From: Nilaparvata lugens
Lineage: Eukaryota > Arthropoda > Insecta > Hemiptera > Delphacidae
Direction of reading: 5' to 3'
Assembly (NCBI RefSeq): GCF_014356525.2
Contig: NC_052510.1
Span: forward strand, 60,127,274 to 60,191,273
Length of the DNA stretch: 64,000 nucleotides
A program made the translations under genes and the position numbers. The notes beneath the pieces were generated by a model. The model had not been told where the DNA came from. It saw only the letters and a program-made list of their open reading frames with translations, and ran no database searches. Shown piece by piece: positions 24,353-62,323 of this stretch; the stretch's first letter is position 1, and every line of letters begins with the position of its first letter.

Positions 24353-27300
24353 ATGCAGTGCTCTCTGGTCTTCTTGGCTCTCGTCGGCTTTGCCGCAGCT
24401 GCCGTCATCCCACACAACAACAACAACAACCACAACGTTGACATCACCACCAAGAACAACATCGTTGACTTCAACCAGAGGAATGGAGTGACCTACAACT
24501 ACAACCCATACAACAACCGCAACAACTACAACAACAACCAGAACAACAACTACAACCCATTCAACAACCAGAACAACAACTACAACCCATACAACAACCA
24601 GTACAACAACTACAATGGTTACAACAACGTCAACCCATTCTACAACCCATACAACAACCAGTGCTTCAACAACCAGTACAACAACGTGAACAACCAGTTC
24701 CAGAACCAGCAGTACAACAACCAGTTCCAGAACCAGAGGTACAACCACCAGAACCAGTACCAGAACAACCAGTTCCAGAACCAGATCTACAACAACCAGT
24801 TCCAGAACCAGAGGTACAACAACCAGAACCAGTACAACCAGGTCCAGAACAACCAGTTCCAGAACCAGCAGTACAACAACCAGGTCCAGAACCAGATCTA
24901 CAACAACCAGTTCCAGAACCAGAGGTACAACAACCAGAACCAGAACAACCAGGTCCAGAACACCCAGTTCCAGAACCAGAACAACCAGGTCCAGAACACC
25001 CAGGTCCAGACCAACCAGGTCCAGAACACCCAGTTCCAGAACCAGAACACCCAGTACCAGAACCAGAACAACCAGTTCCAGTACCAGAACAGGCAGGTCC
25101 AGAACAACCAGTTCAACAACCAGAATGGTGAGTTAAATTTTTAATTTCTGAATATATTTTGCTTTCCATCACAATACTAAAAATGCATTTCAAATTATCA
25201 TGCATGGAAGTGATTTATTTCCAATAGTTAATATTCAACACAAGTAATATATGAAATAGAATCTTCGAATAATTAATAATGATAGTAAACTCCAAAATAA
25301 TAATGAATTTGATAGAAATAGCATCATATCTGATTGAGAGTGAATTATAATATTCTAATTTGTCAGACAATGCATCGATGAAAGTGAATCATTCATTCTC
25401 ATCTATGCATTGGTTACCTGTAGAGTATTGATGTTCTCCTCAATGAATAACATTTATCACCATGGTTACAGTCTATGTGACTTGAAATTTTAGTTGTTAA
25501 CATTCAAATAGTGAATAATGGAGATAATTCAAGATCTTGAATAGAACCTTCCTAGTATAAACCTTAATAACACAATAGCCTTGATAATAATATTCTTTTT
25601 CAAAATCACTTGCAAAATTTGTAAAATTGATGACAAAATGCGTCTTCTATGAAGCAAATAATTCAAGCCTCAAATATCAATTACTGGTGGCAAGGCTTGT
25701 AGAATCTCTTCTATTAAAAATTTTCTCTGTTAAAAAACGAAAGTCAAATCTTCTATAAGAAGTGACTCTCATACATCGACATCTAAACCACGTAATTTTC
25801 AAACAAACTCACCAGTGTTTCTACAATAATAACTGGCTTCAATGAATTGCTTAGCATTGATCAATATGATTGAACAACTATCTATCCATAAAAAAGGAGG
25901 TATAGTACTCTTTCAAAACCAATTGGGTTCATATTCATCCATCACAATAATATTAATGAAGTGAACTACTGTACTTTACTTTTTATAATTTATACATTTT
26001 AGTAACTTTCATCTCAAAAGAGTTCTTCTCCAGCTATTGAATGTCTCTTTGAAAGGAATACCATGGATTAATAACCTGGATGGGAAGAACCTTGTTACTA
26101 CAAATACCTTGGATACAGCAATTATGTTGTCAATCAAATGAGATTCGTCTTATTCAACTCAGTTATTGAGATATCAAGATTCTGTCGATATTCATTCATT
26201 GAAATGTTCAGGTAATAGATATAGGCCAGGAAGCACGACTTAACTATCCTCTAGACTTTTATCTTGTATTTTGAATTGAATATAAGTTGGAGGAATAATT
26301 CAATTGAAGTGATAGAAGGCCTAATTTCAAGCTCACTAGGATATCATTGTCTCTTGTTTTCCGTTTTATTTATTGACTCAGAAAATGATGCAATCTTTTT
26401 GTTATCCAGAATCATTGAACATCATTAATTTGAAAAAATGATAGTAACTAAAATGTCTAAAAATTCAAGAAATTATTTATTCTTGATAACTATTGAGCCC
26501 TGATTATCCTCTCAACCTAGCCATATTATTTATATGTTTGGAAAATTATAATTTTGAACACTTTGGGTCGTTTTATTTGATTGGTATTCCTATAGGATTA
26601 GATTGATCCTAAAACGTAATTCTCAAATAATCTCATAATCTCAAATGCAATTTCTCCAACATTTAATCTATAATAATATCAACAAATGTTTGAACAACAA
26701 CTTATAAACATGTTGGGGATACCATCAGTTTCAATATATATGGAATTTTATTGAAATGTTATTTGAATTAATATATTGTTGTTGTGTGAATTCACAATGA
26801 AAGAATGTTGACACGTTTAACTGATGACTGGTTCTATGTTTTGTAGGCCAGAATGTTAACAACCAGAACCAGTTTGTGAACCAGTACCAGAACCAGAACC
26901 AGGTCAACCAGGTCCAGAACCAGAACCAGGTCAACCAGGTCCAGAACCAGAACCAGGTCAACCAGGTCCAGAACCAGAACCAGAACCAGATCAACCAGGT
27001 CCAGAACCAGAACCAGGTCAACCAGGTCCAGAACCAGAACCTGGCCCAGAACCAGAACCAGGTCAACCAGGTCCAGAACCAGAACCAGAACCAGGTCAAC
27101 CAACAGAACCAGATCACCAAGAACCAGAACACCAAGGTCCAGAACCAGATCAACCAGAACCAGAACATCCAGGTTGAGAACCTCATCAACAACCAGAACC
27201 AGGTCAACCATGTCCAGAACCAGAACCAGATCACCAAGAACCAGATCAAGAACAACCAGAACCAGGTCAACACCAACCAGAACCAGAACAACCAGGTCCA

Positions 27301-28087
27301 GAACCAGAACAACCAGAACCAGGACAACCAGGTTGAGAACTTCTACAACAACCAGAACCAGGTCAACAACGTTAACCAGGTTAACAACAACCAGAACCAG
27401 AACCAGGTCAACCAGATCCAGAACCAGAACCAGGTCAACACCAACCAGAACCAGAACAACCAGGTTGAGAACTTCTTCAACAACCAGAACCAGGTCAACA
27501 ACGTGAACAACCAGAACCAGAAGAACCAGTTCTACAACCAGTACCAGAACCAGGAGACCTACTTCAACAACCAGTACCAGAACCAGAAGTTCAACAACCA
27601 GAACCAGGTCAACCAGTACAACAACCAGAACCAGTACCAGAACCAGAACAACCAGTACCAGAACCAGAACAACCAGGTCAACCAGTACAACAACCAGAAC
27701 CAGTACCAGAACAACCAGGTCAACCAGTACCAGAACAACCAGTACCAGAACCAGAACAACCAGGTCAACCAGTACAACAACCAGAACAACCAGGTCAACC
27801 AGTACCAGAACAACCAGGTTAACCAGTACCAGAACCAGAACAACCAGGTCAACCAGTACCAGAACCAGAACAACCAGTTCACCAACCAGAACCAGTTCAA
27901 CAACCAGAACCAGTTCAACAACCAGAACCAGTACACCAACCAGAACCAGTTCAACAACCAGAACCAGATCAACAACCAGAACCAGTTCAACAACCAGAAC
28001 CAGTACACCAACCAGGTTACCAGCCAGAACCAGATTGAGAACAACCAGAACACCGGTATCTTCCAGGCTATCAAGTCTTTCTTCTAA
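24353..28087 (+). CDS. Gene A: secreted Asn/Gln-rich low-complexity repeat protein
   Basis: CDS is join(24353..25127, 26847..28087), 671 aa. The start is the ATG of [17 protein letters not shown], a typical signal peptide (cleavage expected near residues 15-17). Then come an Asn run, a non-repetitive block around [20 protein letters not shown], a Tyr/Asn-rich segment with PYNN/PFNN repeats, the only mature cysteine (Cys104), and [10 protein letters not shown] repeats. Exon 2 adds VNQVQNQNQ and QYQNQNNQ repeats, QVEN landmarks at 367, 420 and 464, and the tail [12 protein letters not shown]. The donor AATG|GTGAGT and acceptor TTTTGTAG|GC join in phase 1 (Gly259) and keep the frame open. Stop codons in the overlapping frames (such as GGT TGA) read through as QVEN here, which supports this frame. 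No family is recognised; a structural secretion (gel, sheath, coat) is inferred from composition. Two paralogues follow downstream. Confidence 0.85.
25128..26846 (+). other. Gene A intron (1719 bp, phase 1)
   Basis: GT at 25128 and AG at 26845-26846. AT-rich, sharply different in composition from both exons. It aligns with the gene B intron along its whole length with small indels. Retention would end the protein a few codons past the donor (G-E-L-N-F). Confidence 0.85.
26847..28087 (+). repeat. Coding tandem-repeat array of gene A exon 2
   Basis: Made mostly of the hexamer CCAGAA and of CAACCAG/CAGGTC variants. The plus strand is dominated by A and C, with G nearly confined to CAG and GTC/GTT codons. 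In the coding frame Asn is almost always AAC and Gln almost always CAG. Confidence 0.9.
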
Positions 28088-28115
28088 GCTCCTGCATAGA
28101 TGAAATTTCAACCTA

Positions 28116-28121
28116 AATAAA
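28116..28121 (+). other. Gene A poly(A) signal
   Basis: AATAAA 29 bases after the stop codon, conserved at the same place in genes B and C, predicting a very short 3' UTR. Confidence 0.7.
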
Positions 28122-28765
28122 TTTCTATAAAACCTTACAAAATTCTTCTCATTCCAACCTCAAGCACTAGCTATACTTCAAGTGCCAAAATCATCAAAAA
28201 CTTATGAATAATAATAATAATAGACAATATTCATAATCTTGAAGAATATTAACCATGTTTGATGAAAACTAATACAATCTCAATAGTTCGGTTTTGGAAA
28301 ATCGTCTACTATCTCAATAGTACATGAATATGGTAAAACTCATAATCAGCAATGATTATCATGTTTCATTAGTATATTGAATCATGATGATACTCTGAAG
28401 TATCATATACTCATGCATGAATTATATACTTCTGTATTCCAGAAGAATTGATAGGAACTCATCAGTTTGACAAGTTTTAAAGCAATCGTCTCATGGCAGT
28501 TAATTCAATACTCAACTACAAATTAAAATACAACACATGCTTTAAAATATACTGACAAATTTTAGCTATGAATAATTACATCCGGACTCAGTATAATTGA
28601 ATGATTCTCTAGTCCTTTGAATATATTCAAATCCTGTTGCAGTATTCCTCAATTGATTAAATAGATTTCGAAATTCAGCTTTAATTAAATAAACTTGTGC
28701 TTAATGGATGAAATCAAACCTCAATTCAATGAACTTGTGTATGACGAATGAAGCTGACATAATTA

Positions 28766-28955
28766 CTATAGTGAGGTCCGAGGTATAATTCAAAGTGGAG
28801 AAAAATAGTACAACAGCGTTGTCTATTCTCTGCCTTGCCTTCTATAGAAGGTAGCAGATACCAGTATATCAGATGTTATAGTACCTGTTCATTCTTGTTT
28901 GAAATAATAAATAATATTTTATTCGGCCAGGAAATTGTTTTCCAATGATTTAATT
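28766..28955 (+). mobile_element. MITE family B, truncated left part
   Basis: CTATAGTGAGGTCC start in the same position as the complete copy at 42135 in unit 2. The right half is missing because the unit 1/unit 2 homology ends here. Confidence 0.65.
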
Positions 28956-29159
28956 CTTACACTTACGGAGCTCTGAGAATATATCTGATTGTTTTTTGCA
29001 CATTTTTTATTTCCCAAACTCGAGGTTCTATTATTTTTGTTAAATGGAACTGTAGAATACTCATCTCTGTTTATAAAATTCACGGCTAATTCTGTTTAAT
29101 CCATTTCCAATGTTCAACTTACCTCTCAGTGGATATTCCAGCACAGAATCTCTCATTTT

Positions 29160-29290
29160 ATATTTTTATTTATTTATCCATTTCATTGACAATCACAAAT
29201 AATAATTATAATATATAATATGATTGGGAGAAGACAACAGGCATAGCCCAAAACTGTCTTCTCCCAAATTTTTAAAAATAAAAGTTTCAA
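29160..29290 (-). mobile_element. LINE 3' end with conserved hairpin (minus strand)
   Basis: Hairpin at 29226-29265; its stem on the minus strand is GGGAGAAGACA/TGTCTTCTCCC, differing from the 22278 copy by paired changes. The ATTTATTT tail is at 29164-29175. The overlapping 118-codon minus frame (29183-29539) runs through this 3' module and is not a credible gene. Confidence 0.55.
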
Positions 29291-29762
29291 AAAATAATTT
29301 TTGATTGACTCTTTTCTCTCGTCACTCAGCTCCAGGTATTTCACAATCAAGTTCACTACATTATTTAGGAAAGCACCTCCGTATCTTAATATTTTTCCAG
29401 CAATTTGTGAACTTCGATGGCAAGAACTTCTGAGGATGTGATTCAGAGAAAGATGTGAGAGTAAGATGACAAAAATGAATGTTTTATATATTAGAATAAC
29501 TCGAGGGAAATTAAACGAGGCAATATTATTGGCACCCAAGGTGAAATTATCGTCTTGTATGGAAAAGTGTATTAACGCCGTGAGCTATTTGGTCAAATGA
29601 TGGAATATTATGTTGTATAAATAGCAAATGTTGTACAAATAGTTGGACCTGATATGATGGGAACAGAGTGCCTAATAGGACCTCGACAAAAAAGCATTGG
29701 ATAGAACCATAAACATTGTCACGTGGTACTTTAGTACCATCAAATATTTTAAAATGAACCAA

Positions 29763-32084
29763 TGAATTTTAATAGAATTATAAAAGGGAAAGGAGGTTAG
29801 ACCAAGTCAAAGGATCAACCAACTTAAATCGAATATTATTAGCGATTAGGAGTAATAGTATTATCAAAAACGATAAGAAAACATGTATAATTGTGATTCT
29901 ATAACTATGAGAACCCATTGGCAAGATTAAAAAATTATAAAGCGGCTTACTTATTATTGGCGGATTATAAAAAATAAAAGTTTGCATGAACATTGAGGTT
30001 AGAATTATTTGTTTACATTTTGAAAAGAATTAGTCGATCTTGAATAAATCGATAATTATTAGAATCAATGCTGAGCGAATCAGCTGATCACTCGATCAAC
30101 CAGTATAACAGGTTGAATTATATAAAATTTATTCACAAAGGATATATTATGTATACTAAAGGAAATTGATGTGTAGAAATACGAACAACTATTATTTCTG
30201 TATAAATATTTATTATAATCTAAAAAGCACGAAAAACCAAGAGTATACAAAACTCATATAAAAAACGAAAAGTATTATCTATTAAAATCGTATGTTACGA
30301 TTTATTTATGAAATTAATTCAAGATAAACACTCCATGTATTTATATAGAAACTTTTTATTTTAATTTTTTCTATTATAAAGTTGAGGAAGCCCTGATTCT
30401 GAGGCGACCAATTGTATTGAGTTTATTAAATTGAAGGCCAATCAGAGAGTAGCTTACAAAATTATTCTAGGAAGAGACAAATTTTTCTGAAAACCTCCTT
30501 CTTCTGGCTTAAGATCTTGACCTGAGAGGATGCACATGGAGTTTAGGGTTCTTTCTTCCTTTTAAAATTTCAAAAACTATCAAGCCAAACCCTTTTTAAA
30601 TGTGAAATATTTGTATCAAATGTTAAATTATCTGTGAACTCAGTGTTGTTGAAGAGTTCATAATCGTAATTGTTCCCTATAAATATATCTTTAATTAAAA
30701 AAAAGAAACTTATAAGAATCTGGACCACGCGTTAGCCCAGCAGAGACGAAAGGAGCCTGCCTAATTAATTATTGGAAATAATTAATTCAATCCACGAGAC
30801 CGTCAAGAACTTCATTTATGTGAGTGATAAGTCAAACGAGCTCGTTTTAGGTTTTCTACGTATAGTGGGGAAACTAATTAGAAGCGCTATTCAAATTAAC
30901 TTGAATTAAAGAAAGAGTCACAACGTGTTGAGTGATATCACATAGTTCATAAGAACATTTTATAAATTTATTTGATATATGTAGGAAGCTTACTTCCATG
31001 CACGGCCCGAACTCATATAAATCCCTGAGATCTCATGTTTGATATTAATTTGTTAATTATTATTTTTGCTAATTGAGCAAAGTATATCATATCAAATCTA
31101 TGAACCAAACAGGTTTATATTTGTAGAATTTTGAATTGACTGGAAGTCTAAGCATCAGTATTGAATATAATGTGTTTATAAATTTGAAACTCACTACTGT
31201 GAAAGCTATTAAATCTTGTGATAATTATTCAGATTTTAGAAAGAATTTATTTAAGAAAAATTATAGATATATCGAATGTTTTATATACACTGTTTTATGG
31301 GAATATATTTTGTGTTTTATGTCAGCATACAAAAGCATAGAATTTTTTATTATATCCTAACTCATCTCGTGATATACAGTTTGAGCTGTTTTAGTACCAA
31401 TAGATATTCAGCAGCATATAAAGTTATTGAATCAAGTAATATTGATCTTATTAAAAGCACTCAGTATTTATCATCCTTTGATGATAATCATATTAGTTTG
31501 CCAGAACAAGTATATTGAAAATTATATTTATAAGGTTCCAGTTATATCATATAAGGATCCAGAGAGCTTCAAGAACTGGCGTTGTAAGTTCTAAGGAATT
31601 TTGGAAGGATAAATTGGTGAATACCTGTATTCATGACGAGCGTTTTAAGAATCAACTAGAAAAAACTATAGTTGGTCTTTATTATTCTCTAGTGGGTACA
31701 TGGTTACTGATAATCAGTCATCAAATATTATTTTAATTTCCTCACTGGTATTCTTGAAGAACTTCATAGAAGCAGCGGTAAGAACTATTAATCACAGGTC
31801 ATTGAACTTTATGGTGATTAATTGTATTTGTAAAATCCATGTATCTACCACTGAGCTAGAGCTGAGGTTTGAACCCAGTAATTTTGCGAGCCGGACGGCC
31901 TTAATTTTTTGTGAATTTATTCGCAAAAGAGGGAATTTAGCGACTGCTCTTATAAATCTCAAGAACATCGTATCAGCTGTAAAGGATTTGAAATTTACCA
32001 CCTTATACAGTTATAGCTTCATAACGTGGGGCTCTATCATAAGAGATAACCCTCCCAGGAGCACAACTTCACAACATTAATATT
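29763..32084. other. ~2.3-kb block present in unit 2 but not unit 1
   Basis: The flanks 29432-29745 and 32085-32250 match adjacent sequence in unit 1 (21850-22200), so this is probably an insertion. Short open frames at 31136-32080 show no motif I can name, and I found no LTRs or terminal inverted repeats. Class unknown. Confidence 0.4.
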
Positions 32085-32706: not shown

Positions 32707-32895
32707 AATCAAGTCCATCATCATCATCTACACTTCAGGGATTCGGTTTGTTTAACAACTAGTTAGTAGAGTTGATTCTTGAAATGAAGATTGAATAGCC
32801 TCATTCTTGTATGAACCATTGATAACTTCCCAATCGACCTAAGTCAGTAAGAAAGTCATTCATCCATTTCACAAATTTCAGGATAGTTTAAGAGA

Positions 32896-34172: not shown

Positions 34173-34325
34173 GTGCCGGTTGCACAAAAGCCGGTTAAAT
34201 CTGAATCGTGATTCATTCCACGAGAACCAATAGGAAAAGCCGTTTTTCCAAAAAAAAGCCTTCTCTGATTGGTTCTTGAAAATTTATCACGGTTAAAATT
34301 TAAACGGCTTTTGTGCGACCCGGCC
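34173..34325. mobile_element. MITE family C
   Basis: GTGCCGGTTGCACAAAAGCC to GGCTTTTGTGCGACCCGGCC. The matching position in unit 3 (about 54338) lacks it, giving an empty site. Confidence 0.75.
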
Positions 34326-37404: not shown

Positions 37405-37722
37405 AAATCGATTAGGAATATTCCACATCCTGATTGATGACATTAACTAATCTGGGGTAATTTAATTCAATTTCCAAATTCATTCCAATAAAACTCAGGT
37501 ATCTAAGTACACAGTTACTGCAGAAATCCATTCGAAATATTCCATGATATATGAGAATTTGACAAGAGGTGTGAGCACACATAAAAAACTGTAGAGTAGT
37601 CTTTCAATGGCTTGATACGGGGACCCCGTGACCTTTCAGCGACGAGACAGATAATGAGAGAGTATATAACGAGCGGACAGCGTTCGACTAATTGTCCTTT
37701 TCGAAGAACTCACTCAATCATC
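37405..37722 (+). promoter_or_regulatory. Gene B promoter and 5' UTR
   Basis: TATATAA at 37663-37669, 60 bp before the ATG. The AGATAA and TGACCTTTCA motifs and the GGAATATTCC palindrome (37415-37424) sit at virtually the same distances as in gene A. Confidence 0.75.
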
Positions 37723-40700
37723 ATGCAGTGCTCTCTGGTCTTCTTGGCTCTCGTCGGCTTTGCCGCAGCTGCCGTCATCCCACACAACAACAACAACAAC
37801 AACAACGTTGACTTCACCACCAAGAACAACATCGTTGACTTCAACCAGAGGAATGGAGTGACCTACAACTACAACCCATACTACTACCCATACAACAACC
37901 GCAACAACTTCAACAACCAGTACAACAACTACAACCCATTCAACAACCAGAACAACAACTACAACCCATACAACAACCAGTACAACAACTACAATGGTTA
38001 CAACAACGTCAACCCATTCTACAACCCATACAACAACCAGTGCTACAACAACCAGTACAACAACAACGTAAACAGCCAGTTCCAGAACCAGCAGTACAAC
38101 CACCAGAACCAGTACCAGAACAACCAGTTCCAGAACCAGATCTACAACAACCAGTTCCAGAACCAGAGGTACAACAACCAGAACCAGTACAACCAGGTCC
38201 AGAACAACCAGTACCAGAACCAGAACAATCAGTTCCAGAACCAGATCTACAACAACCAGTTCCAGAACCAGAGGTACAACAACCAGAACCAGAACAACCA
38301 GGTCCAGAACACCCAGGTTCAGACTAACCAGGTCCAGAACAACCAGGTCCAGAACAACCAGTTCCAGAACCAGAACAACCAGGTTCAGAACACCCAGTTC
38401 CAGAACCAGAACACCCAGTACCAGAACCAGAACAACCAGTTCCAGTACCAGAACAGGCAGGTCCAGAACAACCAGTTCAACAACCAGAATGGTGAGTTAA
38501 ATTTGTGCTGATAATTTTTGAATATATTCTGCTTTTCATCACAATACAAAAAAAAATGCATATCAAATCATCTTGCATGAGAGTGATTTATTTTCAATAG
38601 TTAATATTCAACACAAGTATACAAGTAATATATGGAATAGAATCTTTGAATAATTAATAATAATAGTAAACTCCAAAATAATAGTAAATTTTATAGAAAT
38701 AGCATCATATCTAATTGGGATTAAATTATTATTTCCTAATTTGTCAGACAATGCAATGATAAAATTGAATCATTCATTCTCTATGCATTGGTTTGTTGTA
38801 TCATACTTGCATACCTGTAGAGTATTGATGTTCTCTTCCATGAATAACATTTATCGCCAGTCTATGTGACTTGAAATTTCAGTTGTTAACATTCAAATCG
38901 TGAATAATAAAGATAATTCTTGAATAGAACCTTCCTAGTATGAACCTTAATAACACAATAGCCTTGATAATAATATTCTTTTTCAAAATCACTTGCAAAT
39001 TTTGTAAAATTGATGATGAAATGCGTCTTTTATGAAGCAAATAATCCAAGCCTCAAATATTAATTACTGGTGGCAAGGCTTGTAAAATATCTTCTATTAT
39101 AAATTTTCTCTGTTAAAAAAACGATAGTCAAATGCATCCTCTATAAGAAGTGGCTCTCACGCAGCGACCTCTAAGCCACGCAATTTTCAAACAAACTCAC
39201 CATTGTTTCTACAATAATAACTGGCTTCAATGAATTGCTTAGCATTGATCAATATGATTGAACAACTATCTATCCATAAAAAAAGAGTTATAGTACTCTT
39301 ATTCAAAACCAATTGGGTTCATATTCACCCATCACAATATTAATACAGTGAACTACTTTACTTTTTATAATTTATAAAGTTTAGTAACTTTCATTTCAAA
39401 AGAGTTCTTCTCCAGCTATTAAATGTCTCTATGGAAGGAGTACCATGGATTAATAACCTAAATGGGAAGAACCTTTTTACTACGAATACCTTGGATACAG
39501 CAATTATGTTGTCAATCAAATGATATTCGTCTTATTCAACTCAGATATTGAGATATCAAGATTCTGTCGACATTCATTCATTAGAGTCTTAAGGAAATAG
39601 ATATAGGCCTGGAAGTACAACTCAACTATTCTCTAGACTGTTCTATTGTATTTTGGATTAAATATAAGTTGGAGGAATAATTCAATTGAAGTGATAGAAG
39701 GCCTAATTTCAAGCTCACTAGAATATTATTGTCTCTTGTTTTCCGTTTTATTTCTTGACTTAGAAAATGATGCAATCTTTTTGTTATCCAGAATCATTGA
39801 ACATCATTAATCTGCAAAAATGATAGTAACTAAAATGTCTAAAAATTCAAGAAATTATTTATTCTTGATAACTATTGAGCCCTGATTATCCTCTCAACCT
39901 AGCCATATTATTTATATGTTTGAAAAATTATAATTTTGAACACTTTGGGTCGTTTTATTTGATTGGTATTCCTATAGGATTAGATTGATCCTAAAACGTA
40001 ATTCACATAATCTCAAATGCAATTTCTCCTACATTTAATCTATAATAATATCAACAAATGTTTGAACAACAGCTTATAAACATGTTAGGGAGACAATCAG
40101 TTTCAAGATATATGGAATTTTATTGAAATGTTATTTGAATTAATGGATTGTTGTTGTGTATTCACGATGAAAGAATGTTGACTCGTTTAACTGATGACTG
40201 GTTCTCTGTTTTGTAGGCCAGAATGTTAACAACCAGAACCAGTTTGTGAACCAGTACCAGAACCAGAACCAGGTCAACCAGGTCCAGAACCAGAACCAGA
40301 ACCAGAACCAGATCAACCAGGTCCAGAACCAGAACCAGAACCAGAACCAGATCAACCAGGTCCAGAACCAGAACCAGGTCAACCAGGTCCAGAACCAGAA
40401 CCAGGTCAACCAGGTCCAGAACCAGGTCAACCAGGTCCAGAACCAGAACCAGGTCAACCAGGTCCAGAACCAGAACCAGAACCAGGTCAACCAGCAGAAC
40501 CAGATCACCAAGAACCAGAACACCAAGGTCCAGAACCAGATCAACCAGAACCAGAACATCCAGGTTGAGAACCTCATCAACAACCAGAACCAGGTCCAGA
40601 ACCAGAACCAGATCACCAAGAACCAGATCAAGAACAACCAAAACCAGGTCAACACCAACCAGAACCAGAACAACCAGGTCCAGAACCAGAACAAGGACAA

Positions 40701-41469
40701 CCAGGTTGAGAACTTCTACAACAACCAGAACCAGGTTAACACCAACCAGAACCAGAACCAGGTCAACACCAACCAGAACCAGGTCAACCAGATCCAGAAC
40801 CAGAACAACCAGAACCAGAACAACCAGGTTGAGAACTTCTTCAACAACCAGAACCAGGTCAACAACGTGAACAACCAGAACCAGAAGAACCAGTTCTACA
40901 ACCAGTACCAGAACCAGAAGTACAACAACCAGAACCAGGTCAACCAGTACAACAACCAGAACCAGTACCAGAACCAGAACAACCAGGTCAACCAGTACAA
41001 CAACCAGAACCAGTACCAGAACAACCAGGTCAACCAGTACCAGAACAACCAGTACCAGAACCAGGTCAACCAGTACCAGAACCAGAACAACCAGGTCAAC
41101 CAGTACCAGAACCAGAACAACCAGGTCAACCAGTACCAGAACCAGAACAACCAGGTCAACCAGTACCAGAACAACCAGTACCAGAACCAGGTCAACCAGT
41201 ACCAGAACCAGAACAACCAGGTCAACCAGTACCAGAACCAGAACAACCAGGTCAACCAGTTCAACAACCAGAACCAGTACACCAACCAGAACCAGTTCAA
41301 CAACCAGAACCAGTACACCAACCAGAACCAGTTCAACAACCAGAACCAGTACACCAACCAGAACCAGTTCAACAACCAGAACCAGTACACCAACCAGGTT
41401 ACCAGCCAGAACCAGATTGAGAACAACCAGAACACCGGTATCTTCCAGGCTATCAAGTCTTTCTTCTAA
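37723..41469 (+). CDS. Gene B: secreted Asn/Gln-rich low-complexity repeat protein
   Basis: CDS is join(37723..38491, 40217..41469), 673 aa. Signal peptide and splice sites are identical to gene A, with the intron again in phase 1 (split Gly257). The N-terminal block differs slightly (VDFTT, and an added PYYYPYNN), Cys107 is the only mature cysteine, and the QVEN landmarks are at 372, 419 and 460. Relative to gene A some [10 protein letters not shown] units are gained and others lost, always in whole codons, while the tail [12 protein letters not shown] is unchanged. This is the closest relative of gene A, in line with the surrounding duplication. The function is unknown; a secreted structural protein is inferred. 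Confidence 0.85.
38492..40216 (+). other. Gene B intron (1725 bp, phase 1)
   Basis: GT at 38492 and AG at 40215-40216. Collinear with the gene A intron. No internal gene seen. Confidence 0.85.
40217..41469 (+). repeat. Coding tandem-repeat array of gene B exon 2
   Basis: CCAGAA-type hexamer array, with a 3' half made of regular CAGTACCAGAACCAGAACAA-type units. The regularity suggests recent homogenisation. Confidence 0.9.
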
Positions 41470-42515: not shown

Positions 42516-42582
42516 CAAGTCATTCTATGGGAATAAGTCCACATACAGCTGTGGAAAATGAGAAAATCCAAAATGGTATAAT

Positions 42583-42854
42583 CATAGAGAAACAATAGCG
42601 TAAGTAGATATCCCATGGTATAGGGAATTTATGTTGCAACTTTTACTGTTATCTCAAGCCGATTACTGTCGATTATTGTCAATTTTTACTGTTTTGTTGG
42701 GGTGAGAGTGTAGAACGGCACAATTTGAGAGACTACCAGCGTCACACAGCTGCATAGGAAAGAACTACGTGAGCTATCGGCTTGGGATAACAGTAAAAGT
42801 TGCGACATAAACGCCCTATACCATGGGATATCTACTTATTATCGTTTCTCTATG
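42583..42854. mobile_element. MITE family A with 7-bp target duplication
   Basis: Starts CATAGAGAAACAATAGCGTA and ends inverted at CGTTTCTCTATG, flanked by GTATAAT on both sides (42576-42582 and 42855-42861). Unit 3 keeps an unfilled site (AAAATGGAATAATTTCAC near 63290). No coding. Confidence 0.8.
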
Positions 42855-43479
42855 GTATAATTCCACGGGAAAATCGATATTACACTACAGCACAAAACAA
42901 CTCGCTTTCACTAAAACATTTATTAGTTTGGGCGCAAATGTACTTCCAAGTCCTTTTTCGGGGAACAACCCTGGAAGATGTCTCAACTCCTTTGTAAGGA
43001 CAAGTATTATAAAAAAACACAACGATGATAAGTCGAAATCACAGGCAAACATCTCGAAAACAAGATGTCAGCCAAAATCTTCTTTTAAACTCAATTAAGA
43101 ATACATTGATACCATGTTCAAGTCTATATCTTCAAGGAGTCATTGGATACAAGGTTTTTGACATATGGTGGAAAAATCGTGTTTTTCCACTGCAAGTTGA
43201 AATTTTCTCTCTTATTCCAATGACAAGCCTAGCCGTCAAAAATGGACCTACAATGTTCAACTAGACGTCATTTCAAAGCTTGTGACATAGACTGGAACAC
43301 TAAGGCGATCAAAGCGAGCCTGCCGGCTAGCCATTTATATTTTAGAAGTTAAGAAAATATATTTTTTTAATAAATTTTATTAGTTGGATTTATTATTTTG
43401 CGAATTAATTATATGTCTACATTGTTAAAAAACTATTTGACAACATTGCCAGAGCTAGAGAAGGATAGTGCTATCTGCT

Positions 43480-44556: not shown

Positions 44557-44827
44557 CATAGAGAAACGATAGCATAGATATCCCATGGTATAGGGCGTTT
44601 AAGTCGCAAGTTTTACTGTTATCCCAAGATGATAGTTCACAAAGTTCTTTCCTATGCAGCTGTGTGACGCTGTTGATCTCTCAAATTGTGCCGTTCATAC
44701 ACTATCACCACAACAAAACAGTAAAAATTGACAATAATCGACAGTAATCGGCTTGAGATAACAGTAAAAATTGCGACATAAATTCCCTATACCATGGGAT
44801 ATCTACTTACGCTATTGTTTCTCTATG
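44557..44827. mobile_element. MITE family A with 7-bp target duplication
   Basis: CATAGAGAAACGATAGC... to ...GTTTCTCTATG, flanked by ATATTAT on both sides. About 271 bp with terminal arms of some 75 bp. Confidence 0.8.
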
Positions 44828-44834
44828 ATATTAT

Positions 44835-45823
44835 GTTTATGTATTATGTAATTAATTACTATACATGGGAAAGTAGGGTGAATAACTTGTATATCAATCA
44901 TCATTTGAAACAGTAAACCGAAAAGTAAAAACCTCAAAAAATGATTCATAATCATCCATAGTAAAATATTAGCATTGGAAGAGTACATCCCCTTTAATAC
45001 AGGCCAATGACCCAGTCTACAAGGTCAGCTTTAATTTCGTGCAGCCACCTGTAACCTGCTTTCAAGGTTTGAGGTTATGTTGACCCAATTTTCAAATTTA
45101 TGCTACTTTTAACCGAAAAAACCATCTCAACCTAACACCATTTATCGAAATGTCATCGTCATACGTATATTATCGATTAATGATCATAGATAACAATCGA
45201 AGATAAAAAATAATTGGATTATAACATAAAATTACTTACCACGCTCCCGAAATTTGCATGAAAATTGTCAACTTTTGACAAGGAAGTTTTCGTTGTAAAA
45301 TCACGTTTCGCCCGATTCTAACCACTGATAATATTTAATTGTTGATTGTAGAACGATAATCAACTATTCTCAAGGTACAAAACATAATTCAAAAGCGAAT
45401 ACAACCATAATTATTAGCACGTCACAAGATGTTCAACAACATGAACTCGCAAGGTCGCGACCGATGAACTGACTCGTTCATCCCTTATGATTGATTGGTG
45501 AGGGGTGAGAAAAACTGGAAGAATAGTTCGGAATAGAATGGTTCATTTTTGAACTACCTACTCTCAGAATACTAGTTCATCAATTATAGAACTGATAACG
45601 GAAAGGTAACCTTCATTGTTTCTATGAAAGATTTCGTTGTCTAAACTGAATTGATAACCGAATTATGGGGAAATTAAGAATAAAAATTTCAAATTGAATA
45701 AATGAAATTGATGTACACCTCTGCACTCTTTAGAATTTATTTTTGTAAAATTACTTCGGTTCCATGTTTCAACTACAATATTTTCTTACCTGTCGCATTG
45801 GTTTATTACCTATTTTCAATTTA
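44835..45823. other. Gene-free AT-rich stretch
   Basis: I see neither a gene nor a recognisable repeat here. Confidence 0.5.
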
Positions 45824-49111: not shown

Positions 49112-50267
49112 TTTTACTTTCCTTGCTCTACTACCATAGGTAAGAAAAGTATTGCTTTCCAAAAAAAATTAAGGTACCCCAATTTCAAGTTTTCTATACG
49201 TTTCAAGGTCCCCTGAGTCCAAAAACATGATTTTTGGGTATTGGTCTGTGTGTGTGTATGTGTGTATGTCTGTGAACACGATAACTCCATTCCTAATTAA
49301 CCGATTGACTTGAAATTTTAAGCTTAAGGTCCTTATACTATGAGGACCCGACAATAAGAAATTCAATAAAATTCAATTCAAGATGGCGGAAAAAATGGCG
49401 GATAATTACTAAAAAACCATGTATTTCACGTTTTTCTCGAAAATGGCTCTAACGATTTTCTTCAAATTTATACAATGGATAGCTATTTATAAGCCCTAAC
49501 AACTGGCATAAGTCTCATTTCAGGGAAAATTTCGGGAGCTCCGTAATATTCTTGAGAAAAATGGAGGATAATGACTAAAATACCATGTTTTTCACGGTTT
49601 TCTCGAAAACGGCTCCAACGATTTCCTTCAAATTTATACCATGGATAGCTATTTATAAGCCCTATCAACTGGCATAAGTCTCATTTCAGGAAAAATTTCA
49701 GGAGCTCCGTAATATTCTTGAGAAAAATGGCGGATAATGACTAAAAAACCATGTTTTTCACGATTTTCTCAAAAACGGCTCTAACGATTTTTTTCAAATC
49801 TATACCCTGTATAGTTATTTATTAGCTCTATCAACTGACATGAGTCTTTCTACTGGGGTACTAATGGGGGGTCCACCCAATCCTTGAGAAATGGACTTTG
49901 TAACCTCCTTCTCGTGCATGAGATAGGTAGGTACAAGGTTTTTACTTTTTCTTCTTCCATATACCGTGGGTACGGTAGGTAGAGCAGTTTATAAAAAGAA
50001 CACAGTCATAGTCAAGATATTTCATCTGTAGAACAGCTGTTTTGACGAATTTCAAAAAAAAATCATCGAATTTCACAATTTACATAAAGGAAAAAGTACT
50101 CTGAAAACAATTATTGTATATACACTTATACAGTAGTCTGATCGTAGTTGCGAATATGTTGCCGTCAATCGTCATTATGTTATTCCCCTAAATTATTCTC
50201 GTTTGATAATGAGGCTTATAGTTCAATGAGCAAGGAAAGTTGTGTGAGTGTACCACACCAGATTTTT
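49112..50267 (+). mobile_element. Interspersed repeat with ACTTTCCTTGC terminal inverted repeats
   Basis: Second copy of the element at 2045. Ends ACTTTCCTTGCTC and GAGCAAGGAAAGT remain mutually complementary although they differ from the first copy. Internally about 180 bp around AAAATGGCGGATAATGACTA is repeated three times. Confidence 0.6.
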
Positions 50268-54756: not shown

Positions 54757-54915
54757 GCTGCGTTTACACGAAAATCCATATAGATTCTATAAGATTGAAC
54801 GGAGCTTGACAAACACATATGTTCATTATTTGTATGATAAGTTATGTTCAATCCAATAGAATCTGAAAGGATTAACTTATTAACATTTTGTTAATAACTT
54901 TGGTGTGAACGCAGC
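54757..54915. mobile_element. Small MITE with GCTGCGTTTACAC ends
   Basis: GCTGCGTTTACAC and GTGTGAACGCAGC are inverted termini of a ~159-bp element with partly palindromic interior; the corresponding place in unit 2 appears to lack it. Confidence 0.6.
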
Positions 54916-55027
54916 ATAAGAATACTAATGATTCTTCTTTGCAGAAGATCTTGAAAATGAATGATAGCGCACTCGGCAACAGTTTCAATAGAACAGATAA
55001 AGATCATTTGCAAAAAAGATTGACTCC

Positions 55028-55150
55028 AAATTCAAATTCAAATTTATTTATTCCACACTCATAAATACATAGACATGAATCAAACAAAGCTCAACATGAC
55101 AATACAATCCAACCAAAGAAAATATCTCCAATAAAGAAAATATCTTTCAG
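55028..55150 (-). mobile_element. Non-LTR retrotransposon 3' end (minus strand)
   Basis: AAATTCAAATTCAAATTTAT is the inverted (TTTGAA)n tail. Absent from unit 2 at the matching place. Confidence 0.4.
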
Positions 55151-55185
55151 AAAAATAGTACAGTATTCACGACTTCAAGGTACCG

Positions 55186-55480
55186 CTAATTTTGGGCGTA
55201 TCTTTGGCGTTATCTCAAATTCCTTCTAACACAACATTATTACACCTCAGCTGAGCTACTGTAGTAAATTTGAACAATTATTTATGTTTATTTGTTCTCG
55301 ATAAAGCTGAGAAAAAGCAAAAAAACGCTGGAAAAAACTAATTTTGGGCGTATCTTTGACGTTATTGCAAATTCCTTCTAACACAACATTATTACACCCT
55401 AGCTGAGCTTTTGTACCAAATTTGAACATTTTCTGTTCATTTTTTCCCGATATAATAAATACTATTATACGTAGCCGTCA
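55186..55480 (+). repeat. 152-bp tandem duplication
   Basis: CTAATTTTGGGCGTATCTTT starts at 55186 and 55338; both copies contain CAAATTCCTTCTAACACAAC. Confidence 0.75.
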
Positions 55481-55789
55481 ATGTAAATTGATAGTAAGTA
55501 TGGATCCTATGAAACTTAATTCCCATGAACATATTAAACTTTGGTGAGGAAGATCAAACAATCAATATTTTCAAAGATCAAAACTTATTAAAATCGATTC
55601 TACTTGTAGCATTTCATTATTATCGATTATAGAATCAGTTAGATTCATCTATTTCTACTGATCAAGCTTTGACTGAAAGAAACGAGACTTCATCAATGCA
55701 TTTCACCTCTTGCTTTGCAACACAGAATCTATAGAACTGATAACCATTCTGATTGGTTATTTCAATAATTCACTCATATAGTAGGTACC

Positions 55790-56621
55790 TACACAGTTAG
55801 TGCACAAATCGATTGGGAATATTCCAAATACTGACTGATTAGTAACATTTATTATTCTTAGGTACGTGATTTGATTCAATTTCTAATCAAATTTCCAGTA
55901 AAATTTAGATATTACATAGTTAGTGCTCAAATTGATTAGTAATATTCCACATCCTGAATGGTAATATCAGGATTAATTATTCTAAGGCACCTAATTTGAT
56001 TCAATCTCTTATTATATTTCAATAAAATTCAGGTCTTGTAATATTATCACTATGAATTAGTGATAATTATTATTACTAATAGTGATATTAGTATTTTATT
56101 GACACTATGAATACTATATTATTGTAATTTAAATCACTTGAAAATAACTGATCTGATATTACCATTCAAGATGTGAAATATCAGATCAGTTATTTTCAAG
56201 TGATTTAAATTCATTTCTAACTCAATTTCAATAGAATTTAGGCAGTGAGCCTGCACAGTTAGTGGAGAGATCGATCAGGAATATTCTACATTCTGATCAG
56301 GAACATCAGTTAATTTGATTTCAATTACATTGAATTCAGGTAGTGTTCAAATCGATGAGGAATATTTGTGTTCCTGATTGCCAATTATTTCAGTAATTCA
56401 TAGGTAGAACTAGTGCAAAAACCGATTAGGAATATTCCACGATGTACGAAAAATTTTGATAGAGGTGTGAGGGCAAATAAAAAACTGATAGTGTAGTATT
56501 TTTCAAACGCTAGATACAGGGACCCCGTGACCTTTCAGCGACAAGGCAGATAATGAGAGAGTATATAACGAGCGGACAGCGTTCGACTAATTGTCCTTTT
56601 CGAAGAACTCACTCAATCATC
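55790..56621 (+). promoter_or_regulatory. Gene C promoter with iterated upstream element
   Basis: TATATAA at 56562-56568, 60 bp before the ATG, with the AGATAA and TGACCTTTCA motifs kept. Upstream, a diverged module with GGAATATTCC or close variants recurs at 55816, 55939, 56278, 56359 and 56431, each preceded by an AGTG..AAATCGAT-like sequence. Genes A and B have about two such modules each. The tandem modules are a candidate enhancer; no factor is proven. Confidence 0.65.
56126..56211. repeat. Perfect 35-bp inverted repeat (hairpin)
   Basis: Arms 56126-56160 and 56177-56211 are exact reverse complements (AATTTAAATCACTTGAAAAT...), separated by a 16-base loop. It lies in the gene C promoter region, about 400 bp before the TATA box. 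Confidence 0.85.
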
Positions 56622-59600
56622 ATGCAGTGCTCTCTGGTCTTCTTGGCTCTCGTCGGCTTTGCCGCAGCTGCCGTCATCCCACACAACAACAACAACAACA
56701 ACAACGTTGACTTCACCACCAAGAACAACATCGTTGACTTCAACCAGAGGAATGGAGTAACCTACAACTACAACCCATACAACAACCGCAACAACTACAA
56801 CAACTACAACCCATTCAACAACCAGAACAACAACTACAACCCATACAACAACCAGTACAACAACAACTACAATGGTTACAACCCATTCTACAGCCAGAAC
56901 AACAACGTCAACCCATTCTACAACCCATACAACAACCAGTGCTTCAACAACCAGTACAACAACAACAACGTGAACAACCAGTTCCAGAACCAGCAGTACA
57001 ACAACCAGTTCCAGAACCAGAGGTACAACCACCAGAACCAGTACAACCAGTACCAGAACCAGTTCCAGAACAACCAGTTCCAGAACCAGGTCTACAACAA
57101 CCAGTTCCAGAACCAGAGGTACAACAACCAGGTCCAGAACCAGAGGTACAACAACCAGGTCCAGAACAACCAGTTCCAGAACCAGAACAACCAGGTCTAC
57201 AACAACCAGTTCCAGAACAAGCAGTTCAACAACCAGAACCAGTACAACCAGGTCCAGAACAACCAGGTCCAGAACCAGCAGTTCAACAACCAGAACCAGT
57301 ACAACCAGGTCCAGAACCAGAGGAACAACAACCAGGTCCAGAACACCCAGGTCCAGACCAACCAGTTCCAGAACACCCAGGTTCAGAACACCCAGGTCCA
57401 GAACAACCAGGTCCAGAACACCCAGTTCAACAACCAGAATGGTGAGTTTAATTCATTTTCATAATTTCTGAGTCAATTCATTATGCTTCCCATCAGAATA
57501 CAGAAACGAAATTTATTCAATTCCCTATTAACAGAGGTGTTCAAGTTCCAATAGTTCACTTTTAACACAAGTCATATTTTGAAATAAAATGTCAGAGTAA
57601 TTAGTAATAATAATAAACTTCGGATTCAGTTTTGGGCTGAGCCTTTTGCTCTCTCCCAGTAATTGTATTGATAGATGAGATAAATTAACTAATCAACAAT
57701 GAATTAGATTACATAATTATTAGTTCCTAATTTGTATGAATTAGTATACCCTTGTTCTCTCAGATTAAATTATTGGTGACAATAAAAACGTCCGAGATCC
57801 AGATTAATTATTGATAATCATACTTTATCAGTCTATTTATTGGTATGTGAAATCATACGTACATTCCCTGTAGAATGACAGCATTGTTTTTTCTCTTCTT
57901 CAATAAATAATATTCATTATCACAGTTCATTGAAGGGATGTGACTTGAGAGTTTAGTTGTTTGAAAAGAGATATTCGAATGTTTGAGGTGTAGATCCTTC
58001 CTAGTATGAACAGTATGAACCTTTATAAGAGATGATAAGACAATAGCCTCTATATTATTTTTTTTTTCAAAATCTCTTGCCAATTTTGTTACACTCAATA
58101 ATCAATCACCTACTTTATAGAACAAAACAATCAAACCTGGACTATTAATGGCTCAAGGCAAGGCCTATCAAATCTCGTTTATTCCAAATTTCGCTGCTCG
58201 GAATGCAACATCTATGAGACATAATAATTCTTCTTAAGAATCTCTTGCGAATTTTGTAACACTCAATAATCAATCACCCACTTTATAAAAGAGAACAATC
58301 AAACTTGGAGTATTAATGGCTCAAGGCGAAGCCTATCACAAATATTACAAATTATTACAAATTCTCTTTTATTACAAATTTTCTCTGCTCGAAATGCAAC
58401 ATCTATAAGACATAATAATTCTTCATGAAAATCTCTTGCGAATTTTGTAACACAATAATCAAACACCTACTTCATAAAACAAAACAATCAAACCTGGACT
58501 ATTAATGGCTCAAGGCAATGCCTATCAAAACACGTTTATTACTTATTTTCTCTGCTCGAAATGCAACATCTATAAGACATAATAATTCTTCTTAAAAATC
58601 TCTTGCGAATTTTGTAACACAATAATCAAATACCTACTCTATAGAACAAAACAATCAAACCTGGAGTATTAATGGCTCAGGGCAAGGTCTACAATGTATA
58701 ACAAACTTTCTCAGCTCGAAATGCAGCATCTATAAGATATAGTTCTCACGTAGTTGACCTCAAAAGCACGTAGTTTTCAAACACATTTACAAGCATTATT
58801 CACTGTCCAATGATAGTAACTTGCTTTGATGAATTGCATATAAGAACAATTCATGTGCATTGCATTTAACGATATCATCACAGGATTATAGCATAAGATA
58901 TACAGTACACTACTTTAGAACCAATTTAGTTCATATTTACCCTTGACAATATTATTATCGTCTAGCTCTTATTACGTTAGAAGGTACAGGCATGGAAAAA
59001 TTCGAATTACAGTATTTGCATTACTTTTATTATTAGAGATTACTTCCATTACTTGTCTACGATACAGGATATAGTCACTTAGTTTAATGGCTGTTTTTAT
59101 CAAGCTATTGAAAACTTCTATAAGAAACATAGGAGAAGAAAATAACCTCGATAAGGCAAACTAAGAATACCTCGGATAACCCACATTTTTTCTATCACTT
59201 CGTCTTATTATTCTTATTCAACTCTCAGATTGTTATTTCTAGATCTATCGACATTAATATTCTATTCATTGAAATGCATACAAAATAGGAATAGACCCGT
59301 AAGATACTGTTCTCCAGTATTCTTGTATGCTTATTTCAAATTTATTATATGTTCGAGAAATAATTAAAAATAATACAATTAATGGAATGATAGGCCTAAT
59401 AGGCTACTTGTAGAGATCAACATATTGGAAATCACTGGAGATATTGCACTTATGAAAATACTAATGAATTGATAATTATTATTAAACGAATATCCAGATT
59501 AAATTCTGTAAATCACCCCGAAGACTTCTGCTATTGCAAATATTGATAACAGGGTAAACACCATATTGAAATATTATTATTTTCTCTTGTTTTTTTTTAT

Positions 59601-62323
59601 TTGTTCTTCTTGACTCAGATAATACTGCAATATTGTAGTTGAACTTTTGTATCCAGAACCGTTGAAAATCATTTGTAAACTCGAGAGTAGGCTAATTGTA
59701 ATCTCTGAGGATTCAAGCTTCAATCCTGTTTCTCAGCTTAGCTTCATCATATTATTCTTCTTTAGAAAATGATAGATGGATAGAGTTTAGAATTAATGAT
59801 CTCTTGAACACTTTAGGTCGTTTTAATTGATTTGATAGTGTTTCTATAGGATTCTGGAACGGAATTCACATAATCTTGAGCTCACCATTATTTTCTTCAA
59901 CATTTGAAGCTAAAAAGCTTTTATGAGTCTATAAAATTTTCACTTTACACATTGAGAGATTAAGGTGCTAGGCTATAGTGAGGTCCACGTTATAATGGCA
60001 GTATTTGATTAACATTGATGTTGCTGTCATTGTCCATCATTCGACATAGAAGATTGCGCTATCCTTTTCTAGCTCCATAACATAGTCAGATAGACAGATA
60101 CTATTTTTAACAAATAGAAATATACATAATTGATAGGATATTCAATTATAAAAATGTATTCTTTGATCATGAAAAAAAATTTCTTGACGTAAAACATATT
60201 GATTATTTTAAACAAGAATTAATATTACAACATAGCGCCATCAGCTATCCTCTAAAAAACATCTTATTTTTCAAATCATTATTACCTTCCTAACAGTGAG
60301 TAGTTTAATCAACTATCAAATGATTGATATATTTAATAATATTATAGTTGAAAAAACAACTTTGTGATTTATTTGAAGAATTAGAATGAATATTACATCA
60401 TAGCGCCATCAGCTATCCTTTACAGAAGACAGTGGCAAAGCAGAGAATATGCAACGATGATCTCCTATCTTCACTGCTATATAACGTGGGCCTAACTATA
60501 CTGTAGTATGCTACTTGTCGATACCGTTAGTAGATATATTCATTCCATAGTGTCCTTATTTGATTGAATTCACGAACAATTAAAAAAAGACTTAACATAT
60601 AATTAAGTAGATCACAAAAATTAGACTATATTTATTATTATTTCCCTTATTAAAATTTCCCTTACTGTTGGTAATTGACTTCTCATGGTCACAAGCTAAT
60701 TATATCTTGAGTTGCTATAAAGTTTTCTCTGTATTATTTGATAGTTAATTGAACTACTCAGTAAGGGAATAATGATACCAATCATAACATGTTTTAAATT
60801 TTTTGAAACTTGTTGCAGTTGTTGTTTAGAGATCACGATTCCTCGAAAGTAGTCTATGTTTGAACATTGATTCTCATATATTATAAATATTTAAAAATAT
60901 ATATTATAATCAAATTTTGAAGAGTATCACATTGATTTGCTTCCCAAAAGTTGCATTTTAAATGAATAATATTGATTGATGGAAAAACAATTTTGTGATA
61001 TATTTGAATCTATATTAAATTCAAGGAACTGTTTCATTCTAAGAACATTGAATCTATTATATCAAAGATGAGGATAACGTATTAACATGTTAGGGAGAAC
61101 ATCAAATTATGGAATTTGGTTGCAATTTCATTTGAACTATTGAATGTTGTTGTGTGAATTTGAAATTGAATATTGATTTGAATTTTTTTCACTAATGAGT
61201 GGTTCTCTGTTTTTTAGGCCAGAATGTTAACAACAGGAACCAGTTCGTGAACCAGTACCAGAACCAGGTCAACCAGGTCCAGAACCAGAACCAGATCAAC
61301 AACCAGAACCAGAACCAGGTCCAGAACCAGAACCAGATCAACAACCAGAACCAGAACCAGGTCCAGAACCAGAACCAGGTCCAGAACCAGAACCAGATCA
61401 ACAACCAGAACCAGATCAACAACCAGAACCAGGTCCAGAACCAGAACCAGATCAACAACCAGAACCAGATCACCAAGAACCAGAACATCCAGGTTGAGAA
61501 CCTCATCAACAACCAGGTCCAGAACCAGATCACCAAGAACCAGATCAAGAACAACCAGAACCAGGTCAACACCAACCAGAACCAGAACAACCAGGTCCAG
61601 AACCAGATCTACCAGAACCAGGACAACCAGGTCGAGAACTTCTACACCAACCAGAACCAGGTCAACACCAACCAGGTCAACCAGATCCAGAACCAGAACC
61701 AGATCCAGAACCAGAACCAGATCCAGACCCAGAACCAGATCAACCAGAACCAGAACAACCAGGTTGAGAACTTCTTCAACAACCAGAACCAGGTCAACAA
61801 TGTGAACAACCAGTACCAGAACCAGAAGAATCAGTTCTACAACAAGTACCAGAACCAGAAGTACAACACCCAGAACCAGAACAACCAGTTCCAGAACCAG
61901 AACAACCAGTTCCAGAACCAGTACAACAACCAGAACCAGAACCAGGTCAACCAGTACAACAACCAGAACCAGTACCAGAACCAGGTCAACCAGTACACCA
62001 ACCAGAACCAGTACCAGAACCAGGTCAACCAGTTCAACAACCAGAACCAGAACCAGGTTAACCAGTACAACAACCAGAACCAGAACAACCAGGTCAACCA
62101 GTACCAGAACAACCAGGTCTACCAGTACCAGAACCAGAACAACCAGTTCCAGAACCAGGTTAACCAGTTCACCAACCAGAACCAGTTCACCAACCAGAAC
62201 CAGTTCAACAACCAGAACCAGTTCAACAACCAGAACCAGTACACCAACCAGGTTACCAGCCAGAACCAGATTGAGACCAACCAGAACACCGGTATCTTCC
62301 AGGCTATCAAGTCTTTCTTCTAA
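56622..62323 (+). CDS. Gene C: secreted Asn/Gln-rich low-complexity repeat protein
   Basis: CDS is join(56622..57441, 61218..62323), 641 aa. Signal peptide and first ~20 mature residues match genes A and B. Exon 1 is longer (extra PFYSQNNN and [10 protein letters not shown] units), exon 2 shorter, with more [12 protein letters not shown] repeats early on. Cys107 is the only mature cysteine. The QVEN landmarks are at 365, 411 and 455, and the tail [12 protein letters not shown] is identical. Splice sites AATG|GTGAGT and TTTTTTAG|GC are in phase 1 (split Gly274). It is the most diverged copy, yet frame, landmarks and splice junctions are intact, so it is likely functional. The function is unknown. 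Confidence 0.85.
58073..58745 (+). repeat. Tandem array in gene C intron, four units
   Basis: TCTCTTGC(G/C)AATTTTGT at 58073, 58241, 58432 and 58599 (periods 168, 191, 167). Each unit carries ATTAATGGCTCAAGGCAAGG-like and ATGCAACATCTATAAGACAT-like blocks. Genes A and B have the homologous block once (25610 and 38990). Confidence 0.8.
59973..60501 (+). mobile_element. MITE family B, long copy inside gene C intron
   Basis: CTATAGTGAGGTCCACGTTA to TATAACGTGGGCCTAACTAT; the interior contains a duplicated piece (CATAGCGCCATCAGCTATCC twice), explaining the ~529 bp length. Confidence 0.65.
61218..62323 (+). repeat. Coding tandem-repeat array of gene C exon 2
   Basis: CCAGAA-type hexamers with CAGATCAACAACCAGAAC units early and CAGTACAACAACCAGAAC units later. 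Same codon habits as the other copies. Confidence 0.9.

Follow-up and report, generated by a model that had tools for sequence, protein, structure and literature searches.

The window analysed here is a stretch of 64,000 nucleotides of the Nilaparvata lugens genome (contig NC_052510.1, C7:60127274-60191273), and it holds three tandem genes, g1, g2 and g3, whose predicted products start with a putative signal peptide and consist for two-thirds of asparagine and glutamine. We propose, with a probability of about 0.6, that these genes encode a structural secretory family, a bulk, disordered gland secretion that would harden outside the cell. The spliced models give proteins of 671, 673 and 641 amino acids, each with a single terminal stop, and their introns (1719, 1725 and 3776 nucleotides) are all in phase 1, with GTGAGT donors and TTGTAG or TTTTAG acceptors. 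The signal-peptide-like start, the phase-1 intron, a TATA promoter and a C-terminal tail are common to the three genes; the signal peptide was called by eye, from a mean hydropathy of 2.4 over residues 4-17, and not by SignalP. Over the whole proteins Asn and Gln together make up 67.7, 67.8 and 65.9% of residues in g1, g2 and g3, followed by Val (7-8%), Tyr (6-7%), Phe (4-5.5%) and Thr (about 3%), with about 1% each of Pro and Ala and less than 1% each of Ser and Gly. The mature chains hold one Cys each, 8-9 lysines and few charges. A preliminary description of this DNA had reported three intact paralogues of these sizes, with the same common parts and a composition of mainly Asn and Gln with some Tyr, Val and Phe; the models agree with it exactly in size, start and end, and the residue counts bear out the composition.

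Is the reading frame that yields such chains a real one? In nucleotide alignments of the three copies, 111 of 115 exon gaps are multiples of three (24/24 between g1 and g2, 40/42 between g1 and g3, 47/49 between g2 and g3), the four others being one gap of 17 and one of 10 in each comparison involving g3. Intron gaps are mostly not multiples of three (9/14, 90/126 and 87/118, in the same order). Exons differ by 2.2-5.0% between copies, whereas introns differ by 6.5, 18.8 and 19.4%. Divergence drops from intron to exon near the splice sites, with the exception of the end of g3 exon 1, which departs from g1 at 9 of 88 aligned bases and from g2 at as many. The last 60 nucleotides before the ATG show zero divergence across g1-g3, and divergence climbs beyond about 100 nucleotides upstream. 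Since exon gaps keep to multiples of three and exons diverge less than introns, we conclude from these comparisons that the coding frame is real. That a non-coding repeat array merely mimics a coding frame seems highly improbable: other frames and the antisense strand are indeed long and open too, but such an array would leave unexplained the exon/intron contrasts, the unique conserved termini, the common promoter and the distant relatives with similar gene structure. The long antisense frames were rejected as genes and appear to be by-products of codon make-up, as shuffling the codons of exon 2 keeps the codon-aligned antisense frame of that exon open over its full length in all three genes. 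A proline-rich alternative frame (QPGPEPE...) was also discarded; it has stops in exon 2 and lacks the unique conserved tail.

The genes were described at first as a three-gene family, which holds for the window and is too narrow for the genome. We searched 1,085,386,871 bases in 6870 contigs with the start of g1 and with exon 1 of a gene on C4, so that the counts given here are lower bounds. The g1 start matched five places, namely the three window copies, C6:61438055 and C4:20440928. The exon 1 query gave 39 matches, in the window genes, the C4 gene itself, C4 at 20.456, 20.469 and 19.574 Mb, C11 at 28.395 Mb and, falsely, C12. From these we count at least five additional, apparently intact relatives (genes A to E) on two other large contigs, plus one broken copy. 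The C12 match lies in a polyQ protein whose N-rich reading falls in another frame, and was discarded as low-complexity. The broken copy (C6:61437000-61446900, from about position 1056 of that segment) retains the promoter, AGATAA motif included; because its signal peptide is frameshifted, it contains a run of N and no N/Q-rich open reading frame (ORF) of at least 70 residues occurs further on within the 9.9 kb examined, this copy is a remnant as judged from its sequence. The flanks examined around the family loci contained no additional member. Long ORFs resembling a long terminal repeat retroelement and a long interspersed nuclear element occur near genes D and C (C4:19580000-19589900 and C4:20475000-20484900).

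The start MQ..L[VI][FL]LALVG followed by an N/Q- or Tyr-rich body is found in the window genes and the five relatives. TATA boxes at -51 to -60 and AGATAA, a motif which we take to be GATA-factor-like, at -69 to -74 are present in seven of the eight intact genes, gene E being the one that departs; the 5' untranslated region is similar among the family genes, although D and E share the likeness in part only. The proteins form a gradation. In D and E, which contain YYPY repeats, Tyr makes up about 30% of residues and Ser 14-17%, and A, B and C mix Tyr-Pro-Tyr with N/Q tracts. In the mature chains N+Q reaches 66.2% in C, 61.4% in A and 60.0% in B and is highest in g1-g3 (67.6-69.4%), which are also the longest. 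Tyr accounts for 6.6-16.5% of the mature N/Q-rich members, lysines number 3-9 per chain across the family, and A to E contain 0, 2, 4, 0 and 0 Cys, respectively. The model of gene D is provisional: a donor-like GTGAGT lies just 5' of its stop, so that it may have a second exon.

Codon use points to abundant expression. Summed over g1-g3, CAG outnumbers CAA by 597 to 2, AAC outnumbers AAT by 719 to 15 and TAC outnumbers TAT by 133 to 0, and the GC content at third codon positions (GC3) is about 95% against 32.5% GC outside the gene spans in the window. From these near-exclusive codons and this GC3 we infer strong codon selection through very high expression. GC3 is 80-92% in the five distant relatives, and the non-repetitive signal-peptide region is also biased, less strictly. 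Third codon positions carry less than one third of the differences between window copies: 10/42 for g1-g2 (P 0.12), 11/80 for g1-g3 (P 6e-5) and 15/71 for g2-g3 (P 0.017). They differ by 1.6-2.5%, against 6.5-19% in introns, a pattern opposite to that of ordinary genes. With an alignment guided by the proteins the direction is the same and the effect milder (15/58, 26/108 and 36/130), repeat misalignment affecting both kinds of count. Exon-limited conversion may add to the codon bias of g1-g3. Between distant relatives synonymous changes do accumulate in the N-terminal block; g1 and A, for instance, have 40 residues in common, 10 of them with a synonymous change.

The N/Q-rich chains follow a local grammar. 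QQ occurs 3, 2 and 2 times in g1, g2 and g3, against a chance expectation of about 57-65, and the longest Q run is 2. The share of Gln that falls within a Q-x-Q pattern (mean of shuffled sequences in brackets) is 84-85% in g1-g3 (38%), 88% in B and C (33-34%), 57% in A (27%), 63% in E (21%) and 16% in D (19%). With chain ends excluded, Q is directly followed by V, I, F or Y at 89/123, 94/123 and 88/122 positions in g1-g3. N-glycosylation sequons are absent from g1, g2, g3, A, B, D and E, and C has one; a composition shuffle expects 8-9 in each of g1-g3, the sequon null tests covering g1-g3 and A.

One criterion for Q/N-rich, prion-like sequence is at least 30 Q/N in 80 residues. Every 80-residue window of g1-g3 contains 31 to 65, and the best windows of A, B and C contain 66, 61 and 66; in D and E the best is 28, below 30. 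The term 'prion-like' used in the preliminary description is apt for the composition of g1-g3, and it goes no further than composition. AlphaFold2 models built from three-sequence alignments of exon 1 and exon 2 have a mean predicted local distance difference test score (pLDDT) of 34.1 and 37.2 and a predicted template modelling score of 0.13 and 0.14, with a short, low-confidence C-terminal helix in the exon 2 model. The very low pLDDT fits disorder, yet it is also expected from so thin an alignment.

From composition, self-assembly of g1-g3 is plausible. One specialised gland would make the chains in bulk and store them as a liquid, disordered and soluble, and after release they would set to an insoluble gel, glue or coat. 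Short strands could expose Gln on one face and Asn, Val, Tyr and Phe on the other, stacking through side-chain amide hydrogen bonds, and Tyr-Tyr, Lys-Gln or disulfide links, the last through the single Cys of g1-g3, might then fix the material. The Tyr-rich relatives may be co-secreted partners, or they may represent the ancestral form out of which the N/Q-rich chains developed. We also put forward, more tentatively, a bolder version of this scheme, in which amyloid-like Asn-Gln polymers serve as the substance of an extracellular material. An ancestral secretion protein rich in Tyr would have given rise to near-pure N/Q chains in a single genome, for the most part behind the same type of promoter, synonymous sites (CAG, AAC, TAC) would be held tighter than amino acids in the window genes, and N-glycosylation sites would have been removed so that Asn-rich chains can pack.

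Several observations weigh against a self-assembling, highly expressed secretion of this kind. Gene D has no Q-x-Q excess (0.16 against 0.19 shuffled). The longest unbroken alternation comprises 5, 6 and 10 Gln in g1, g2 and g3, where shuffled maxima are 8, 9 and 8, and hydrophobic residues are under-represented at spacing 2, so that a plain alternating hydrophobic sheet does not apply. The lack of sequons is less striking against a null that preserves dipeptides, which expects 4.6-5.6 sequons in g1-g3, with P(0) of 0.004-0.011 for three genes that are not independent, and 2.3 in gene A, with P(0) of 0.10. The recent spread of repeat units could partly explain the high GC3, which is compared here with the GC of the surrounding DNA. 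The third-position shortage lacks significance for g1-g2, and between distant relatives it is absent: differences by codon position number 31, 33 and 48 for D-E and 52, 36 and 54 for B-C, which resembles ordinary coding genes.

Database comparison was largely negative. At E<=1 Pfam gave no family for both g1 exon ORFs, exon 1 of B and C, D and E. A homology search with the N-terminal block and the tail, as suggested in the preliminary description, was run with these parts of g1 and also with gene E against a protein database of uncertain insect coverage and without a positive control, which makes its negative outcome a weak one: the g1 N-terminus had 7 candidates, the g1 tail 94 and gene E 791, none at E<=0.1, 0.1 and 0.01, respectively. 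DNA patterns had 0 matches in the genome-contig and viral-contig collections. Literature searches, whose coverage mostly excluded subscription papers, returned no described family of the g1-g3 composition; a paper on the Diaphorina citri chorion was set aside, as it mentions asparagine and glutamine in deamidation settings only. The early statement that no described insect secreted family has this architecture is not contradicted by these searches, except that the louse nit-sheath proteins LNSP1 and LNSP2 are similar in design (PMC6328571).

LNSP1/2 are the nearest analogue that we found, by likeness of design. These glue proteins are encoded by a tandem pair, bear a signal peptide, show Gln-Ala alternation and are expressed in the female accessory gland; the partial protein is adhesive (PMC6328571). 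They comprise polyQA, polyGA and polyQ domains, beta-strands have been argued from the Gln-Ala repeats, and transglutaminase cross-links were raised as a possibility (PMC6328571). Common to both families are tandem paralogues, a signal peptide (putative in g1-g3), two-residue repeats rich in Gln, a number of repeats that varies from one paralogue to the next, and few lysines (14 and 15 in the LNSPs, 8-9 in g1-g3; PMC6328571). As to Gln at every second residue, the Q-x-Q fraction in g1-g3 is 0.84-0.85 against 0.38 shuffled, but unbroken runs comprise just 5, 6 and 10 Gln. The LNSPs use Gln-Ala, Gly-Ala and polyQ, the nit sheath being 25% Gly, 24% Glx and 20% Ala (PMC6328571), whereas the window family, compared by description only, is rich in Asn and Gln or in Tyr, contains little Ala or Gly, and almost lacks QQ. 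The polyQA/polyGA/polyQ layout is accordingly not found in g1-g3, with Ala at about 1%, Gly below 1% and no Q run longer than 2.

Other known systems resemble the family in part. Yeast-type Q/N-rich prion domains are Asn/Gln-rich, contain Tyr and have few charges, as do g1-g3, which differ from them in bearing a signal peptide, in being repetitive and in being Q/N-rich over the whole protein instead of one domain. Silk fibroins and spidroins are repetitive, low-complexity, secreted proteins of Gly, Ala and Ser; the window family is alike in the first three respects and differs in its Asn/Gln/Tyr composition. Mucins are glycosylated proteins rich in Pro, Thr and Ser, a composition unlike that of g1-g3 (Thr about 3%, Ser below 1%, Pro about 1%, no N-X-S/T sequons). 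By composition and sequence the family matches nothing that our searches returned; by design it would be a variant of the lineage-restricted, repetitive, secreted structural protein.

What might the secretion be? Our first guess is an egg coat, egg glue or oviduct gel, and our second a salivary sheath. Shematrins are Gly/Tyr-rich and insect chorion proteins are secreted, structural and encoded in gene clusters. Silkmoth chorion promoters carry GATA sites near TATA, and AGATAA near TATA is kept in seven of the eight genes here; GATA sites are used in gut and fat body too, which counts against reading the motif as a sign of egg secretion. An egg-associated product, whether chorion layer, egg glue or lateral oviduct/accessory gland gel, is ranked highest because of the LNSP analogue and of a protein gel in the brown planthopper oviduct (PMC10101634), and we put it a little short of even odds. 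The shematrin-like protein of the lateral oviduct is, as is proposed for the window family, an abundant secreted gel protein (PMC10101634); the family has little Gly. This shematrin-like protein and a vitellogenin-like one are named as the two most abundant in the lateral oviduct (PMC10101634), which speaks against our first guess, and the named N. lugens chorion genes NlHCA and NlHCB are high-cysteine (PMC5493777), whereas the window chains are Cys-poor, with one Cys per mature protein and 0 to 4 in the relatives.

A salivary sheath (gel saliva) component of a sap-feeding bug is a rather unlikely product, although a secretion that turns to gel once outside the animal would fit. Known sheath proteins are mucin-like or Cys-rich. 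Lineage-specific saliva proteins are common, as 60 salivary proteins of the planthopper Epeurysa nawaii have no homologue even in close relatives (PMC10940699); the words asparagine and glutamine are missing from the main text of that paper. A cuticle or other integument matrix protein is improbable. Tyr-rich, low-charge secreted proteins do suit quinone tanning, but the lack of any Pfam match means that no chitin-binding cuticle domain is present in the ORFs scanned (both g1 exons, exon 1 of B and C, D and E). We give slightly less credit still to a gel that traps microbes in the haemolymph or the gut as an antimicrobial or immune device, akin to the spore-gluing atypical mucins Sgf1 and Sgf2 of Drosophila: these show that clustered, lineage-restricted secreted gel formers exist, but they are Pro/Thr/Ser-rich with Cys-containing C-termini, unlike the window family (PMC13373891).

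Repetitive secreted proteins are familiar from silks, glues and egg coats, but signal-peptide chains of more than 600 residues, two-thirds Asn and Gln, were not met in our literature searches. If the bolder scheme holds, g1-g3 would allow prion-type assembly with a function outside the cell to be tested directly. The family also makes it possible to ask whether Q/N-rich assembly, so far familiar chiefly from disease and from yeast prions, serves as extracellular building material. The gradation from Tyr-rich to N/Q-rich within one genome would present possible steps in the evolution of such a polymer. In a rice pest, such a product may be of importance in oviposition or in feeding.

Table 1. 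Features of the three window genes (window positions) and models of their relatives elsewhere in the genome
Feature	Position	Strand	Remarks
g1 gene span	24353-28087	+	two exons
g1 AGATAA motif	24279..24284	+	74 nt 5' of ATG
g1 TATA box	24293..24299	+	TATATAA
g1 exon 1	24353..25127	+	putative signal peptide (first ~17 codons), N-terminal block, N/Q/Y-rich region; stop-free; donor GTGAGT
g1 exon 2	26847..28087	+	NQ-rich repeats, then tail, stop TAA
g1 AATAAA	28116..28121	+	likely polyadenylation signal; sequence read
g2 gene span	37723-41469	+	two exons
g2 AGATAA motif	37649..37654	+	
g2 TATA box	37663..37669	+	
g2 exon 1	37723..38491	+	spliced model
g2 exon 2	40217..41469	+	with tail and stop; spliced model
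g2 AATAAA	41498..41503	+	sequence read
g3 gene span	56622-62323	+	two exons
g3 AGATAA motif	56548..56553	+	
g3 TATA box	56562..56568	+	
g3 exon 1	56622..57441	+	spliced model
g3 exon 2	61218..62323	+	with tail and stop; spliced model
g3 AATAAA	62352..62357	+	sequence read
Gene A			three exons, 496 aa; model
Gene B			402 aa; model
Gene C			416 aa; model
Gene D			277 aa; provisional model
Gene E			243 aa; model

Elsewhere in the window, Rfam at gathering scores and the tRNA search each returned 0 hits, and 5 of 12 other ORFs had Pfam matches, all under the curated cut-offs. Several repeats are present. The motif CCGGTTGCACAAAAGCCGGTTAA marks a dispersed repeat with six copies at up to 2 mismatches (17314-17336, 17862-17884, 17987-18009, 21510-21532, 21629-21651 and 34176-34198), which occurs twice as a close inverted pair, resembles a small mobile element and is reminiscent of planthopper DNA. 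Four near-identical 132-nucleotide tandem units (97% match) lie at 14387-14917, and a 166-nucleotide tandem repeat occupies 49391-49847; one related unit, with 69% likeness to it, stands alone at 2323-2488, at a distance of 47 kb. Long inverted repeats, 95% complementary and 3-5 kb apart (5401-5724/8971-9294 and 46285-46530/51349-51594), resemble the ends of mobile elements. Finally, related and partly palindromic repeats at 42557-42865, 44575-44866 and 62531-62836 lie downstream of g2 and g3, and may play a part in the duplications.

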